Source of the DNA: Campylobacterales bacterium
Lineage (GTDB): Bacteria > Campylobacterota > Campylobacteria > Campylobacterales > Campylobacteraceae
Assembly (NCBI GenBank): GCA_014859645.1
Contig: JACUTV010000013.1
Span: 1-40,661 of the forward strand
Reading direction: 5' to 3'
DNA: 40,661 nucleotides
In this document: piece by piece, positions 485 through 33,081 of the stretch
Layout: each line of letters begins with the position of its first letter
How positions within the stretch are numbered: the stretch's first letter is position 1
Notes under the pieces: generated by a model
Database searches by the model: none
What the model was told of the DNA's origin: nothing
Seen by the model: the letters and a program-made list of their open reading frames with translations, nothing else
Made by a program: the position numbers and the translations under genes

Positions 485-498
485 TTGATGTGGGTCAA
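485..498. promoter_or_regulatory. FNR/CRP-family-like box upstream of cytochrome c
   Basis: TTGAT-GTGG-GTCAA matches the FNR half-site pattern TTGAT-N4-ATCAA with one mismatch. On the minus strand it reads TTGACCCACATCAA, and a TAAGAT -10 candidate follows with the box centre about 32 bases upstream of the -10 centre. That is the geometry of a class II activator site at -41.5. Campylobacterota have several FNR/CRP-family regulators of respiration, so oxygen or nitrogen-oxide control of the cytochrome is a reasonable inference, not shown. Confidence 0.42.
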
Positions 499-25162: not shown

Positions 25163-27748
25163 TTACATGTAAGGGTTAAGACGCGTATTTTGGGTGTTAA
25201 TCCATGCTTGGAGCGAACTTAAATCTATCCCTTTTTCGTAGTAAAATCCTTGCCCTTCGTCGCACCCTTCTTGGGTCAAAAAAGCAGCTTGTTCTTGGGT
25301 TTCGATGCCCTCAGCTAGGGTGGTCATGTGCATGCTTTTGGCTAACACGATGATGGCTTTAGCGATGGCCTTGGCGTCTTCGTGATGGGGAAGATCGCGT
25401 ACAAAGGAGATGTCGATTTTGAGTTTATCCACAGGCAATCGGCGCAGGTAACTTAACGATGAATACCCCGTGCCAAAGTCATCAATGGCGATTTTGACAC
25501 CCAAAGAGCGGATTTTTTCTAAAATGCCAATCCACCGCACCGCGTCTTTCATGAAAATAGACTCGGTGATTTCCAGTTCTAAGGAGCTTGGAGGGATGCG
25601 GGTTTGGTGCAAGATTTCTTCCAGTGTGGCCGTAAAGTCATCGTTTTCAAGCTGAATGCCGGAAATATTCACCGACACTTTACCTTTAAAGCCAAGGGTT
25701 TCATGGAGGCAAACCAAATCCAAACATGCTTGTTTGAGGACAAAGGTGCCAATGGGCAGAATCATGCGAGACTCTTCCGCGTAAGGAATGAAGCGGTTGG
25801 GGCCAAGAAGTCCTTGTTCGGGGTGGTTCCAGCGGATGAGCGCTTCAAGGCCGACACACTGGTTTGTTTGCAGGTCGATTTGAGGCTGATAATACACTTC
25901 AAACTCGTTGTTTGCGATGGCGGATTTGAGTTCATTCTCAATAGTTAGCATTTCCATGGAGGCATTAGAAAGGGTTCGGTCGTAAAAACGAAAGCTGTTT
26001 TTACCCGCATCTTTTGCTTTATACATGGCCAAATCCGCGTTTTTTAGCAAGGTTTCACCCTCTTCGCCGTCGCTAGGGTAAAAACTCACCCCAATACTTG
26101 CGGTGAGGAAAAAAGGCTGTTTGTGAATTAAAAAGGGCGTTTCAAAGGTTTTTTGGATTTTCTCTAAGATGCGGGTTACTTGGTCTTTGTGGGTGATGTT
26201 ATCGAGCACCAATACAAACTCATCGCCCCCAAGGCGTGCGAGGGTGTCGGTTTCGCGCAAGGTATGTCGCGTGCGCTCCACCACCTGCAATAGTGCCGCA
26301 TCGCCGTAAGAGTGCCCAAAGCTGTCGTTGATTTTTTTGAAGTTGTCTAGGTCAATAAAACACAACGCTAAGAGCTGATTTTCGCGTTTACATGTAGCGA
26401 TTCCTTGCGCGATACGGTCGCTGAGCAACGCACGGTTGGGGAGTGCGGTGAGTGCATCGTGATGGGCAAGGTGGGCGAGTTGTTTTTCAAGGCTTAGTTT
26501 TTGCATAAGCATGGCGTTTGCACTGGTGGCGAGCGCGTCAAACTCATAAAAACGCAAATGGGTTTTGTTAATAGGGTAATTGTGATGGGCAAGGGAGTCA
26601 AAAAAGCTAAAAAAAGCATCAAAATCCGCTTTGAGCTGACGATTAAACCGTCGATAAAACACACTCATGATAAAAGCGGCTAGCCCAAACAAGGCCAAAG
26701 AGCTTGCCAGTGAGATGAAAAAAGAATGGTTGAGTTTTTGGTACTCAAGAGCAACGCGTTCGTGGATGTCGTCGGTGTAGACCCCTGCTCCTACATACCA
26801 TTCCCATTCGGGAATGGCTTGGACGTAACTGCGTTTATTGAGGGTGCGTTTTTCCTCAAGGTCGGGCATGACGTAATCTACAAATCCTCCTCCTTGCTTG
26901 GCAGTTTGGATGAGTTCTTGCACGAGAAACTTGCCATTGACATCTTGGGTGTTGTACATGTTTTTCCCTTTGGCTGGGGCTGTAAGAGAGATGCCGTCCC
27001 ATTGACCAATAAACAAATAATTTTCACCCTCAGGGTCAAACTGTAAAAGGCCAATATCTTCGAGGATTTTTTCTTGCAATTTTGCCCTCATATCATCGTG
27101 GTAAAGCCCCGTGCTAATCGTCCAACCGTAGGGCTCAAAACGTTTAAAAAAAGCGGTTTTTTCAAAAAGGCGGTCTTTAGGCTCGCCAGGCTTACTCCAC
27201 GCGTAGGTGTAAAACCCTTCCTCTTGCTGCAATGTTAGTGCAAGAAATTCTTGGACATAGGAGAGCTTGGAGGGAGTGCTTACATGTAAAAGGTTTTTTC
27301 CTTCGTATTCGGGGCCATCGGGAAAGAGAATTTTAACGCCATCGTTTCGGGTGATAAAAAAATAACCACTTCCTTCCATGTAGCGTATAGGGCGCAAGGC
27401 TTCGATGATGAGGCGTTGAAGCTCTTGGGGCGTGGTGGTGTGGCGATAGGTGGCGTAAAGGTTTGTGGCAAGGGCATGGGCTTTGGCAACTTCTTCTTTA
27501 AGAAGTACTTCAAGCTCCTTTTGGTGTTGTCTTTGGCGGGTTTGAATCAAATCGACGAAGTGTTTAACCTCCCAAGACAAACTGCGTTGCTGGTTGGCAA
27601 AATAATCTTCTTTCATTTTTTGAGAAGTGACGGAAAAATGAAGGTAATTTTGGAAAAAGTTTATGGCAATAAAAAAGAGTGTAAAGATAAAAAAAAGGAA
27701 TGCTCCGTACATGTAAACATGCTTAAAGAGCTTTTGTTTAGGCTTCAT
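25163..27748 (-). CDS. Cache-domain sensor with GGDEF and EAL domains
   Basis: The 861-residue protein has an N-terminal membrane span, an extracytoplasmic sensor of about 330 residues with two Cache-like blocks (each with YxYxW-type segments, WYVGAGVYTDDIHERV ending the second), and a second span near residue 400. Then comes GGDEF (LARLGGDEFVLVL, with the inhibitory site RETD five residues upstream), followed by EAL (LEALIRWNHPEQG, and DDFGTGYSSLSYL). Both active sites look intact, so it may both make and degrade cyclic di-GMP in response to a small ligand. The start is at MKPKQKLF; the 61-codon upstream extension is the reverse reading of a tRNA. The stop codon lies in a TTACATGTAA copy, and the protein ends Pro-Tyr-Met. 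Confidence 0.93.
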   Translation of the reverse strand: MKPKQKLFKHVYMYGAFLFFIFTLFFIAINFFQNYLHFSVTSQKMKEDYFANQQRSLSWEVKHFVDLIQTRQRQHQKELEVLLKEEVAKAHALATNLYATYRHTTTPQELQRLIIEALRPIRYMEGSGYFFITRNDGVKILFPDGPEYEGKNLLHVSTPSKLSYVQEFLALTLQQEEGFYTYAWSKPGEPKDRLFEKTAFFKRFEPYGWTISTGLYHDDMRAKLQEKILEDIGLLQFDPEGENYLFIGQWDGISLTAPAKGKNMYNTQDVNGKFLVQELIQTAKQGGGFVDYVMPDLEEKRTLNKRSYVQAIPEWEWYVGAGVYTDDIHERVALEYQKLNHSFFISLASSLALFGLAAFIMSVFYRRFNRQLKADFDAFFSFFDSLAHHNYPINKTHLRFYEFDALATSANAMLMQKLSLEKQLAHLAHHDALTALPNRALLSDRIAQGIATCKRENQLLALCFIDLDNFKKINDSFGHSYGDAALLQVVERTRHTLRETDTLARLGGDEFVLVLDNITHKDQVTRILEKIQKTFETPFLIHKQPFFLTASIGVSFYPSDGEEGETLLKNADLAMYKAKDAGKNSFRFYDRTLSNASMEMLTIENELKSAIANNEFEVYYQPQIDLQTNQCVGLEALIRWNHPEQGLLGPNRFIPYAEESRMILPIGTFVLKQACLDLVCLHETLGFKGKVSVNISGIQLENDDFTATLEEILHQTRIPPSSLELEITESIFMKDAVRWIGILEKIRSLGVKIAIDDFGTGYSSLSYLRRLPVDKLKIDISFVRDLPHHEDAKAIAKAIIVLAKSMHMTTLAEGIETQEQAAFLTQEGCDEGQGFYYEKGIDLSSLQAWINTQNTRLNPYM

Positions 27749-27849: not shown

Positions 27850-27937
27850 TGGCAGAGAGGAAGGGATTCGAACCCTCGGTGAGTTGCCCCACACACGCGT
27901 TCCAGGCGTGCTCCTTCAACCGCTCGGACACCTCTCT
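27850..27937 (-). tRNA. tRNA-Ser(GGA)
   Basis: An 88-nt class II tRNA with acceptor stem AGAGAGG/CCTCTCT (27931-27937 and 27854-27860), discriminator G and encoded CCA (27850-27852). The anticodon GGA is at 27901-27903, and the long variable arm is present. A TAGGAT -10 candidate lies upstream on the minus strand (27962-27967). Confidence 0.95.
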
Positions 27938-28317
27938 ATATGTAAAGCGGACGGAAAGTTTATCCTAAGTGTGCTTAGGTGGATGTTAAAAACGTGGAAG
28001 AGTGAGGAGGCATGAAGATGCGCATTCGCTTTAGGGGATTGGGGCGGGGTAACTTGTGTGTGTAGGAGTGGACATAGTGTCAGGTATGTCTAGCTATCAT
28101 TCCCATTCTTGAATGAGGTGTGTGGCAACACTCAAGAACCCTAAAGCGAACGTGCGATGTGTCCCTAAATTTAACCCACAGGAGAAGAAGTGAGGTAAAT
28201 TGGAAAGAATACTAGCACAAAGAAATGACGAAAAAATTGTCCCTTGTCAAGAAAAACACAAGGAGGAAAAAGTTTGCTATGATTAGGAAAAATGAATGTA
28301 AGAAAAGGAGGTAATGC
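27938..28317. other. 380-base intergenic region
   Basis: Between tRNA-Ser and the 32-codon gene there is no convincing protein gene. It holds a small hairpin CCTAAG-TGTG-CTTAGG (27964-27979), the candidate structured RNA (28021-28156), and the likely promoter (TGCTATGAT, -10 at 28278-28283) and ribosome binding site of the 32-codon gene. A 15-codon frame with AGGAGG (28018-28065) is overlapped by the RNA structure. Confidence 0.7.
28021..28156. ncRNA. Candidate structured RNA (strand not settled)
   Basis: The ends form a perfect 12-bp stem, TTCGCTTTAGGG (28025-28036) with CCCTAAAGCGAA (28139-28150), extended by CGCA/TGCG after a two-base bulge. Inside, CTTGTGTGT (28053-28061) pairs with ACACTCAAG (28128-28136) with one mismatch, and GACATA-N8-TATGTC (28071-28090) makes a hairpin. 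Three runs of four G lie between the first two stems (28034-28049). It matches no RNA family I know: it is not SRP RNA, tmRNA, RNase P or a recognised riboswitch. No clear terminator follows on either strand. Confidence 0.45.
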
Positions 28318-28416
28318 ATGGATGCGCGGTTTCGTCGTTTTTATATGCGGATGATAATAGGAGCGGTGTTTTTGCTTTCTATTCTTGCTTCGAGTATTTA
28401 CCATGCGTTTCAATAG
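28318..28416 (+). CDS. 32-residue single-span membrane peptide
   Basis: A 32-codon gene with a strong ribosome binding site (GGAGG at 28307-28311, six bases from the ATG) and an extended -10 element upstream (TGCTATGAT). The peptide begins with a basic stretch (MDARFRRFYMRM) and continues as a hydrophobic span (IIGAVFLLSILASSIYHAF), so it should insert in the inner membrane with the N-terminus inside. I do not recognise a family. Small membrane subunits of respiratory complexes and type I toxins both look like this. It lies between two tRNA genes and just downstream of the candidate structured RNA. Confidence 0.6.
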   Translation: MDARFRRFYMRMIIGAVFLLSILASSIYHAFQ

Positions 28417-28632: not shown

Positions 28633-29109
28633 TTAATAATATCCTACGCACAAGGTGTCGGTGAGCTTTATTTTTCTCTCAAAAGGAGAAGGGGCGAAAA
28701 AATGGCACTTTTCGATGTAGATATTGTAGTGATACGCAAGGCCAAGAATGTCGTAAAATCCCTTTAAATCTACAAATTTAACGCCCATGAGCGTGACAAC
28801 ACGCAACTTTTCATACAGCTTTGAGCCGTTGCTTTGAGTAAGGTGCGAACTTGCAAGACCCGTAAAAGCGCAAAATGCTTGAGAAAGCACAAGGCCATCA
28901 AGTGGTGTGCAGTGTGCTTGAGCATTGGCGTGTTTGGGCGGGATGGTATCTTTGCGCAAAAAAACCGTGCGCGAGCCTTCAAATTTGGCGGCAATCCCAT
29001 TTTTCCAGTAGCGGTACGTGTTGCCTGAGATGCGCGCATGGGTGGCCAACTCGGCATTGAGAATGAAGTGGTCTAAAAAGTGGTTGGCAGAGAGAGTGAG
29101 CATTTGCAT
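28633..29109 (-). CDS. Unrecognised protein with a possible N-terminal HTH
   Basis: I do not recognise this 158-residue protein. It has no signal peptide or strong membrane span. Residues about 18-40 (NAELATHARISGNTYRYWKNG) look like a helix-turn-helix, with a turn at Ile-Ser-Gly; the rest contains LPP-free mixed segments ending in a Tyr-Tyr tail. AAGGGGA lies about eight bases before the ATG; a second ATG is two codons on. It follows a DnaA-box-like cluster at its 3' side and diverges from the AEC permease gene. A DNA-binding role is a guess from the N-terminal pattern. Confidence 0.6.
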   Translation of the reverse strand: MQMLTLSANHFLDHFILNAELATHARISGNTYRYWKNGIAAKFEGSRTVFLRKDTIPPKHANAQAHCTPLDGLVLSQAFCAFTGLASSHLTQSNGSKLYEKLRVVTLMGVKFVDLKGFYDILGLAYHYNIYIEKCHFFAPSPFERKIKLTDTLCVGYY

Positions 29110-32520: not shown

Positions 32521-32608
32521 TGGCCGGGAGAGAGGGATTCGAACCCCCGGAGGTGTTACCCTCAACGGTTTTCAAGACCGCCGCTATCGACCACTCAGCC
32601 ATCTCCCG
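32521..32608 (-). tRNA. tRNA-Ser(TGA)
   Basis: An 88-nt class II tRNA with acceptor CGGGAGA/TCTCCCG (32602-32608 and 32525-32531), discriminator G and encoded CCA. The anticodon TGA is at 32572-32574. Confidence 0.95.
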
Positions 32609-32623
32609 GTATAGTGCCGAAGG

Positions 32624-32773
32624 TTATTCGGTTTTTTCTTTAACGTAGGTTGCGCCTTGGTTGACCTTTTCTTTAGACCACTCCGCCGCATCGCCAGTAT
32701 CTTGTTTGACACCTTGCCATGTGGCGCATCCCGCAAAAAAAAGACTCATTAGAACAATCAAAAGAGTACGCAT
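32624..32773 (-). CDS. Entericidin-like small lipoprotein
   Basis: A 49-residue product: a basic start and hydrophobic span ([13 protein letters not shown]), then AGC as lipobox (Cys16), then a short polar tail. The tail ([21 protein letters not shown]) has the G-x-x-x-D-x-G-x-A pattern of the entericidin EcnA/EcnB family. AAGGAG lies five bases before the ATG. It would be lipid-anchored at the envelope. It sits between tRNA-Cys and tRNA-Ser, so it may be transcribed with them. Entericidins can act as toxin/antidote pairs; no second copy is seen next to it. Confidence 0.72.
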
Positions 32774-32803
32774 GTGAACTCCTTGTCTCCGTTAAAAAAG
32801 GGT

Positions 32804-32877
32804 TGGAGGCGACACCCGGATTCGAACCGGGGATGAGAGCTTTGCAGGCTCCTGCCTTACCACTTGGCTATGCCGCC
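32804..32877 (-). tRNA. tRNA-Cys(GCA)
   Basis: A 74-nt tRNA with acceptor GGCGGCA/TGTCGCC, discriminator U (diagnostic of tRNA-Cys) and encoded CCA. The anticodon GCA is at 32843-32845. Confidence 0.95.
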
Positions 32878-32890
32878 CTTTGTTTTTTGG

Positions 32891-32978
32891 TGGTGCCCGA
32901 GACCGGACTTGAACCGGTACAAACATAATGTTCGAGGGATTTTAAGTCCCTTGCGTCTACCAATTTCGCCACCCGGGC
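32891..32978 (-). tRNA. tRNA-Leu(TAA)
   Basis: An 88-nt class II tRNA with acceptor GCCCGGG/CTCGGGC, discriminator A and encoded CCA (32891-32893). The anticodon TAA is at 32942-32944. Confidence 0.95.
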
Positions 32979-33006
32979 AGACTTCTACATGTAAATAAAG
33001 AAAAAA

Positions 33007-33081
33007 TGGAGCGGGAAACGAGGTTCGAACTCGCGACCCCAACCTTGGCAAGGTTGTGCTCTACCACTGAGCTATTCCCGC
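33007..33081 (-). tRNA. tRNA-Gly(GCC)
   Basis: A 75-nt tRNA with acceptor GCGGGAA/TTCCCGC, discriminator U and encoded CCA (33007-33009). The anticodon GCC is at 33047-33049. It is the first of the tRNA-Gly, tRNA-Leu, tRNA-Cys, lipoprotein, tRNA-Ser cluster on the minus strand. Confidence 0.95.

Follow-up and report, generated by a model that had tools for sequence, protein, structure and literature searches.

The sX13 RNA of Xanthomonas is highly structured and Hfq-independent, and its C-rich apical loops pair near translation starts (PMC3771888). CJnc230 of Campylobacter jejuni, an RpoN-dependent RNA of 98 nt, carries a putative anti-Shine-Dalgarno stretch, with two stem-loops flanking a 12-nt single strand (PMC11187230), and RepG (HPnc5490) of Helicobacter pylori base-pairs with a variable G-repeat in the tlpB mRNA leader (PMC8295292). 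The window analysed here, the whole 40,661-nucleotide stretch of a Campylobacterales genome, holds a predicted small RNA of about 180 nt that can be compared with each of these. It is like sX13 in being a highly structured RNA with C-rich loop motifs, the targets here being predicted; however, sX13 is built of three separate stems with CCCC loops and has no closing stem around a multi-branched loop, and no sequence relation is claimed. It has in common with CJnc230 the bacterial order and a putative anti-Shine-Dalgarno sequence, but its length, architecture and promoter are different, and the search of other genera in the family gave no copy of it. RepG is likewise a same-order sRNA that acts by base-pairing, as is proposed here; its target, however, is the variable tlpB G-repeat, whereas this RNA has CUUCUCC and CUCCUA in its loops.

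Two further comparisons concern the promoter and the size of the RNA. FnrS and AniS are FNR-activated sRNAs with a CRP/FNR-like box near -41 of the promoter. A CRP/FNR-like box near -41 also lies upstream of the promoter proposed here, but it is an imperfect palindrome with an only putative regulator, and the comparison implies no similarity in sequence. 6S RNA (RF00013) is similar in size, single-copy and standalone, as is predicted for this RNA, but it forms a rod with a central bubble and paired ends, whereas the RNA here combines a separate 5' hairpin with a multi-branched loop. The 6S model has no match in the genome of the window (G000), whereas 5 of 14 control genomes match it.

The first-pass annotation of the window had proposed a candidate new structured RNA at 28021-28156, with a closed three-stem fold. 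The perfect 12-bp terminal stem on which it leaned is present, TTCGCTTTAGGG (28025-28036) pairing with CCCTAAAGCGAA (28139-28150) across arms 102 bases apart. Its view that such a stem is unlikely by chance did not hold up: a shuffled window holds on average 0.5 perfect repeats of 12 bp spaced by no more than 150 bases, and 19 of 60 contain at least one, so the stem by itself is weak evidence. Both strands fold better than 200 of 200 dinucleotide shuffles, with a z-score of -4.5 on the plus strand and -5.0 on the minus strand. A fold of the plus strand reached a minimum free energy of -58.5 kcal/mol, against -47.4 kcal/mol for the minus strand. Three GGGG runs, said to lie inside the first loop, do exist on the plus strand (28034-28037, 28041-28044 and 28046-28049), but the first overlaps the end of the stem and is thus not entirely within the loop; nor are the runs conserved, since the relative G001 has GGGGAAGAGGAAG at that place.

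Comparison with homologues indicates that a predicted minus-strand RNA of about 180 nt runs from about 28201 to 28021, with 28021-28156 forming its inner, multi-branched portion; the observation holds, but the RNA reaches further and includes a 5' hairpin that had not been listed. The features of the locus are given below, with pair counts from two alignments, A7 (4 sequences) and A13 (10 sequences).

28021 to 28201, minus strand: structured small RNA, supported by covariance models R1, R2 and R3, by pair counts and by G.U versus A.C cells
28168 to 28201, minus strand: 5' hairpin H1 (AAUUUA-CUCAC ... GUGGG-UAAAUU), kept by all homologues, with two-sided change in 10 of 12 pairs (A13)
28180 to 28187, minus strand: apical-loop motif of H1, CUUCUCCU, complementary to Shine-Dalgarno sequences; CUUCUCC is identical in 12 of 12 homologues
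28139 to 28152, minus strand: 5' arm of closing stem P1, CGUUCGCUUUAGGG, with two-sided change in 11 of 13 pairs (A7) and 12 of 18 (A13)
28023 to 28036, minus strand: 3' arm of closing stem P1, with the same pair counts
28106 to 28138, minus strand: hairpin P2, whose loop carries CCACACACC, with two-sided change in 6 of 9 pairs (A7)
28050 to 28096, minus strand: third arm, from the minimum-free-energy fold; helix 3 of A13, with 4 of 6 pairs changed on both sides
28063 to 28069, minus strand: exposed motif ACUCCUA of the third arm, flanked by CACACA; all 12 homologues have CUCC, and 11 of them the longer CUCCUA
28209 to 28217, minus strand: extended -10 element TGC-TAGTAT; a -10-like hexamer is found in 12 of 12 homologues
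28237 to 28250, minus strand: upstream box TTGACAAGGGACAA, CRP/FNR-like, centred about -42 from the proposed start
28318 to 28416, plus strand: conserved gene for a 32-residue membrane-type peptide, a divergent neighbour and no part of the RNA
27850 to 27937, minus strand: tRNA-Ser(GGA), called by ARAGORN, the most constant neighbour and on the strand of the RNA
28633 to 29109, minus strand: gene for a 158-residue protein, the conserved upstream neighbour, with homologues by sequence and order in loci L106, L107 and L123
24381 to 25085: window gene, ACACAGGAGUUACC, whose 5' region is a candidate target

Within this architecture, the hairpin P2 is variable, being missing from one copy in the second family, f20 (G237; loci L109/L120). 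The outer stem of the third arm, UAGCU/AGUUA (28096-28092 with 28054-28050), corresponds to the f20 stem AAUCUG/CAGAUU, and a small hairpin, P3 (28090-28085 with 28076-28071), lies within this arm. CACACA tracts recur in two loops. The 5' end of the RNA would lie near 28201-28202, and its 3' end at or beyond 28021. No clear terminator 3' of the RNA is shared across the homologues compared; in L107, a hairpin-like stretch followed by a T-run lies 3' of the RNA and is common to the convergent ahpC gene.

The RNA is carried by 12 genomes, the window copy and 11 further ones, from two families of the order. In the window's family, f1, it occurs in 2 of 2 genomes of genus g1, with further copies in g9 and g12, and in f20 it occurs in 5 of 6 genomes of g57, 2 of 3 of g65 and 1 of 1 of g82. 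When relatives were searched at the DNA level, the only other genome of the genus (G001) matched over nearly the full length at 74% identity and another genus (G012) matched in pieces, and a search with the neighbouring peptide added a third genus (G009). All four f1 copies adjoin tRNA-Ser(GGA), the adjoining tRNA in G012 being partly masked, and their sequences, strongly diverged, yet share one minus-strand fold, namely H1 followed by P1 around P2 and the third arm. With a covariance model built from the window genome and G001 (R1), the E-value was 1.9e-13 for G012 and 9e-8 for G009. When R2 was run with greater sensitivity on 40 genomes, the four f1 copies, which are R2's own building sequences, scored at E 1.5e-23 or lower, and no copy was found in other genera, the next best match having an E of 0.11.

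A profile of four peptides, searched against 399 genomes of the order, matched mostly f20, with most matches near tRNA-Ser(GGA), and R2 located the RNA in several of these f20 peptide loci. As a cross-family test, a model built from f20 copies alone (R3) ranked 28219-28005, minus strand, first in the 40-kb window, at E 9e-4. R3 also matches loci L032 and L036, at E values of about 4e-6 and 5e-6, and added two genomes, G439 and G394. The RNA was not seen in the f20 genera g31 (24 genomes) and g39 (10 genomes), and because the wider searches used stricter filters and missed G009 once, absence elsewhere is not proven. Inspection by eye of 420 bases beside tRNA-Ser(GGA) in other genera of the family and order revealed no RNA, although for minus-strand loci these bases were those on the far side of the tRNA. 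A motif pattern run over the 399 genomes gave one true match, the window itself, and three chance matches, and a stricter pattern in named genomes gave four matches: two true ones, in the 'Campylobacteraceae bacterium' MAGs JAAYLJ010000175.1 and DDHL01000083.1, and two in unrelated bacteria; the exact closing-stem pattern found none in the named genomes. The RNA is single-copy in the window genome, and the plasmid search gave no copy.

At curated as well as relaxed thresholds, no Rfam 15 family matched the RNA, either in the window copy or at six homologous loci, the hits that fall on it being far below cut-off (KCNQ1OT1_1, 17.8 bits against 70; Cyano-1, 15.4 against 41), and ARAGORN gave no explanation for the stretch. 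A match of HPnc0260 (RF02194) at L036:1498-1638, plus strand, exceeds the gathering score mainly since the 3' part of the model equals a tRNA antisense; it rests on the antisense strand of a tRNA-Val and not on the RNA, and the HPnc0260 model is a likely source of false annotation.

Covariation in homologues, whose absence together with that of a transcript the first-pass annotation had named as grounds for giving up its proposal, was looked for and found. In A7, 98.1% of pair cells are standard and 24 of 41 pairs show two-sided change, and in A13 94.8% of cells are paired and 26 of 36 pairs show it, although part of this count leans on alignments fitted to models, which favours it. None of 500 shuffles, which ignore relatedness, reached these values in either alignment, and structures slid by 1-3 columns, a control that keeps relatedness, gave 33-49% in A7 and 32-56% in A13. 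The P1 changes are also seen in the raw sequences, where the arms read CGUUCGCUUUAGGG/CCCUAAAGCGAAUG, GCGUUUGUUUUGGG/CCCAAAACAAAUGU, GCAAAAGCCGAA/UUCGGCUUUUGC and UUUUGCAAGAGUCG/CGACUCUUGCAAAA, and compensatory changes in the closing stem extend over three genera of the window's family and into the second family. These changes show that selection acts on the predicted fold, in which a 5' hairpin precedes a long closing stem that encloses a multi-branched loop, in the 12 genomes from both families. With compensatory changes in two families and no Rfam match, the proposal of a new structured RNA is borne out.

The same alignments show which strand the predicted RNA occupies. Read on the minus strand, A7 contains 17 G.U cells against 1 A.C and A13 contains 28 against 5; an RNA on the plus strand would turn the minus-strand G.U pairs into A.C mismatches, and the RNA is therefore placed on the minus strand. 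In locus L002, the covariance score is 220 bits on the RNA strand against 18 on the opposite one. The -10-like hexamer lies a few bases before H1 in all 12 homologues, at an offset of 35-36 from the upstream box and preceded by TG in most. This hexamer and the G.U cells leave the plus-strand fold, which had been taken as the RNA, unsupported.

CRP/FNR-family class II activators bind near -42. The upstream box has the form TCTTGAC-N4-GACAATTTTTT, and within its core, TTGA-N7-CAA, both TTGA and CAA are identical in 12 of 12 homologues, 62-65 nt from the H1 loop. It resembles the HcpR motif wyTTGACnnnnGTCAArw (PMC1274295), its right half being mostly GACAA and not GTCAA, so that the palindrome is imperfect. 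CRP/FNR proteins are encoded in 19 of 19 genomes tested, some of which lack the RNA, so that the data permit the link to such a regulator and go no further. A second CRP/FNR-like site, TTGACCCACATCAA, lies on the minus strand at window positions 485-498 and precedes the minus-strand gene 137-430 by about 60 bases.

The two near-invariant C/U-rich loop motifs, CUUCUCC of H1 and CUCC(U/C)A of the third arm, are both complementary to Shine-Dalgarno sequences, and the loops CUUCUCC and CACUCCUA are close in sequence to the 16S rRNA anti-Shine-Dalgarno, CACCUCCU. A structured fold with conserved C/U-rich loop motifs is a trait that the RNA shares with the loop-acting trans sRNAs of the sX13/RepG-like class. 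Because of these Shine-Dalgarno-complementary loops and the precedents of sX13 and CJnc230, we propose a trans-acting, translation-blocking sRNA. With moderate confidence, we favour the reading of an independently transcribed minus-strand sRNA of about 180 nt whose loops pair with ribosome-binding sites and whose transcription is under CRP/FNR-type activation. The CUUCUCC and CUCC-type loops would pair with the ribosome-binding sites of several mRNAs and block their translation, while the closing stem P1 would set geometry and stability. A CRP/FNR-family regulator on the TTGAC-N4-GACAA box, at the class II position, may activate transcription, and the RNA would then respond to oxygen, nitric oxide or redox state. 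Duplex energies calculated for 35 window genes indicate that many start regions can pair with the loops, with no clear standout, anti-Shine-Dalgarno complementarity being cheap in that many genes match it.

The genes around the RNA bear on several other readings. In f20 the usual order, with variations, is the 158-residue gene, the peptide, a cyuA-like gene (PF03313), the RNA, a PerR-like gene (PF01475) and tRNA-Ser. In G394 (locus L123), where peptide, cyuA and perR are all missing, the immediate neighbours of the RNA are the 158-residue gene and tRNA-Ser, and in L107 it lies between cyuA and a convergent ahpC that separates it from perR. The first-pass annotation had also noted a 32-residue membrane peptide gene just downstream of its segment, and the 32-codon ORF, MDARFRRFYMRMIIGAVFLLSILASSIYHAFQ, is indeed there. 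RNA and peptide occur together in four f1 genomes and several f20 genomes; the implied link between them is nevertheless unsupported, since each occurs without the other, the RNA in G394 and the peptide in genus g39 and in G271. The peptide, of 32-35 residues (RFY...G..F...SSIY), is conserved in two families, mostly near tRNA-Ser(GGA), has no Pfam or NCBIfam match, and in the window its gene has its own -10-like TATGAT at 28278-28283. The 158-residue protein, also without a Pfam or NCBIfam match, keeps its position upstream of the RNA across two bacterial families.

We see some chance, well short of even, that the structured RNA instead binds a protein or has another non-antisense role, the C/U loops being protein-binding sites. 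A multi-branched fold with near-invariant loops exceeds the architectural needs of most antisense sRNAs, and the CACACA tracts would suit this role, but no known ribonucleoprotein RNA family matches and the clade-limited distribution speaks against a housekeeping role. A 5' leader or riboswitch serving the gene that follows, which would be tRNA-Ser in f1 and the PerR-like gene in f20, is suggested by the position of the RNA upstream of one or the other, on the same strand, in the copies examined. The partner, however, differs between copies, perR and tRNA-Ser each possess a separate promoter-like sequence (27989-27962 for tRNA-Ser), and a convergent ahpC intervenes before perR in L107; from the gene orders of L107 and L123 we judge a leader of either gene unlikely. 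A type I toxin-antitoxin pair in which the RNA is the antitoxin and the hydrophobic peptide the toxin is a little less probable still: a small membrane-type peptide divergent from a structured RNA and co-occurring with it in f1 and several f20 genomes invites the idea, but the distributions are separable and the obligate linkage to a toxin is lacking. Moreover, when 35 window genes are ordered by loop pairing, the start region of the peptide gene comes only at about place 21, and the two proposed transcription starts are about 90 nt apart and divergent, so antisense overlap is not expected.

A plus-strand RNA, for instance a CsrA/RsmA sponge, would profit from the lower free energy of that strand and from loops displaying CAGGAGAAG and UAGGAG (AGGAG/GGA). 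We regard it as very improbable, as the excess of G.U over A.C cells, the conserved -10 just upstream of H1 and the far higher covariance scores all favour the minus strand, and a sponge is rejected because the transcribed strand shows CUCC instead of GGA. A chance inverted repeat or a mobile-element remnant can practically be dismissed: a single such repeat of 12 bp is not unusual within 150 bases, but compensatory change in many genomes refutes chance, and the single copy and conserved gene order also stand against this origin.

Beyond the favoured reading of a loop-acting sRNA, we raise a broader idea that we hold to be rather doubtful: a new family, limited to a few genera from two families of Campylobacterota, whose closed multi-branched scaffold presents two anti-Shine-Dalgarno mimics and, under a redox CRP/FNR switch, serves as a general translation damper. 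If true, such a damper would become active upon changes in oxygen or nitric oxide in bacteria thought to be Hfq-less. To our knowledge, Hfq is generally missing in Campylobacterales, and we know of few sRNA families in the order outside Helicobacter pylori and Campylobacter jejuni. The family, a structured RNA new to Rfam, backed by compensatory changes and present in 12 genomes, may illustrate regulation by a highly structured RNA without a pairing chaperone, and the promoter box and two near-invariant loops give testable predictions for its regulator and targets.

Several minor observations concern the surroundings of the RNA. In f20 (L106, L107, L108 and L119), its flanks hold a cysteine-desulfidase/serine-dehydratase-like gene (PF03313) and a PerR-like gene of the Fur family, with an additional peroxiredoxin gene in L107, which suggests an oxidative-stress neighbourhood. 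In the window, beyond tRNA-Ser, the minus-strand gene at 25163-27740 appears from its translation to encode a large GGDEF/EAL-type protein with a membrane-anchored sensor region. Other RNA genes of the window include a bacterial small SRP RNA at 1027-1124 on the plus strand and a cluster of four tRNAs (Ser, Cys, Leu and Gly) at 32521-33081 on the minus strand.
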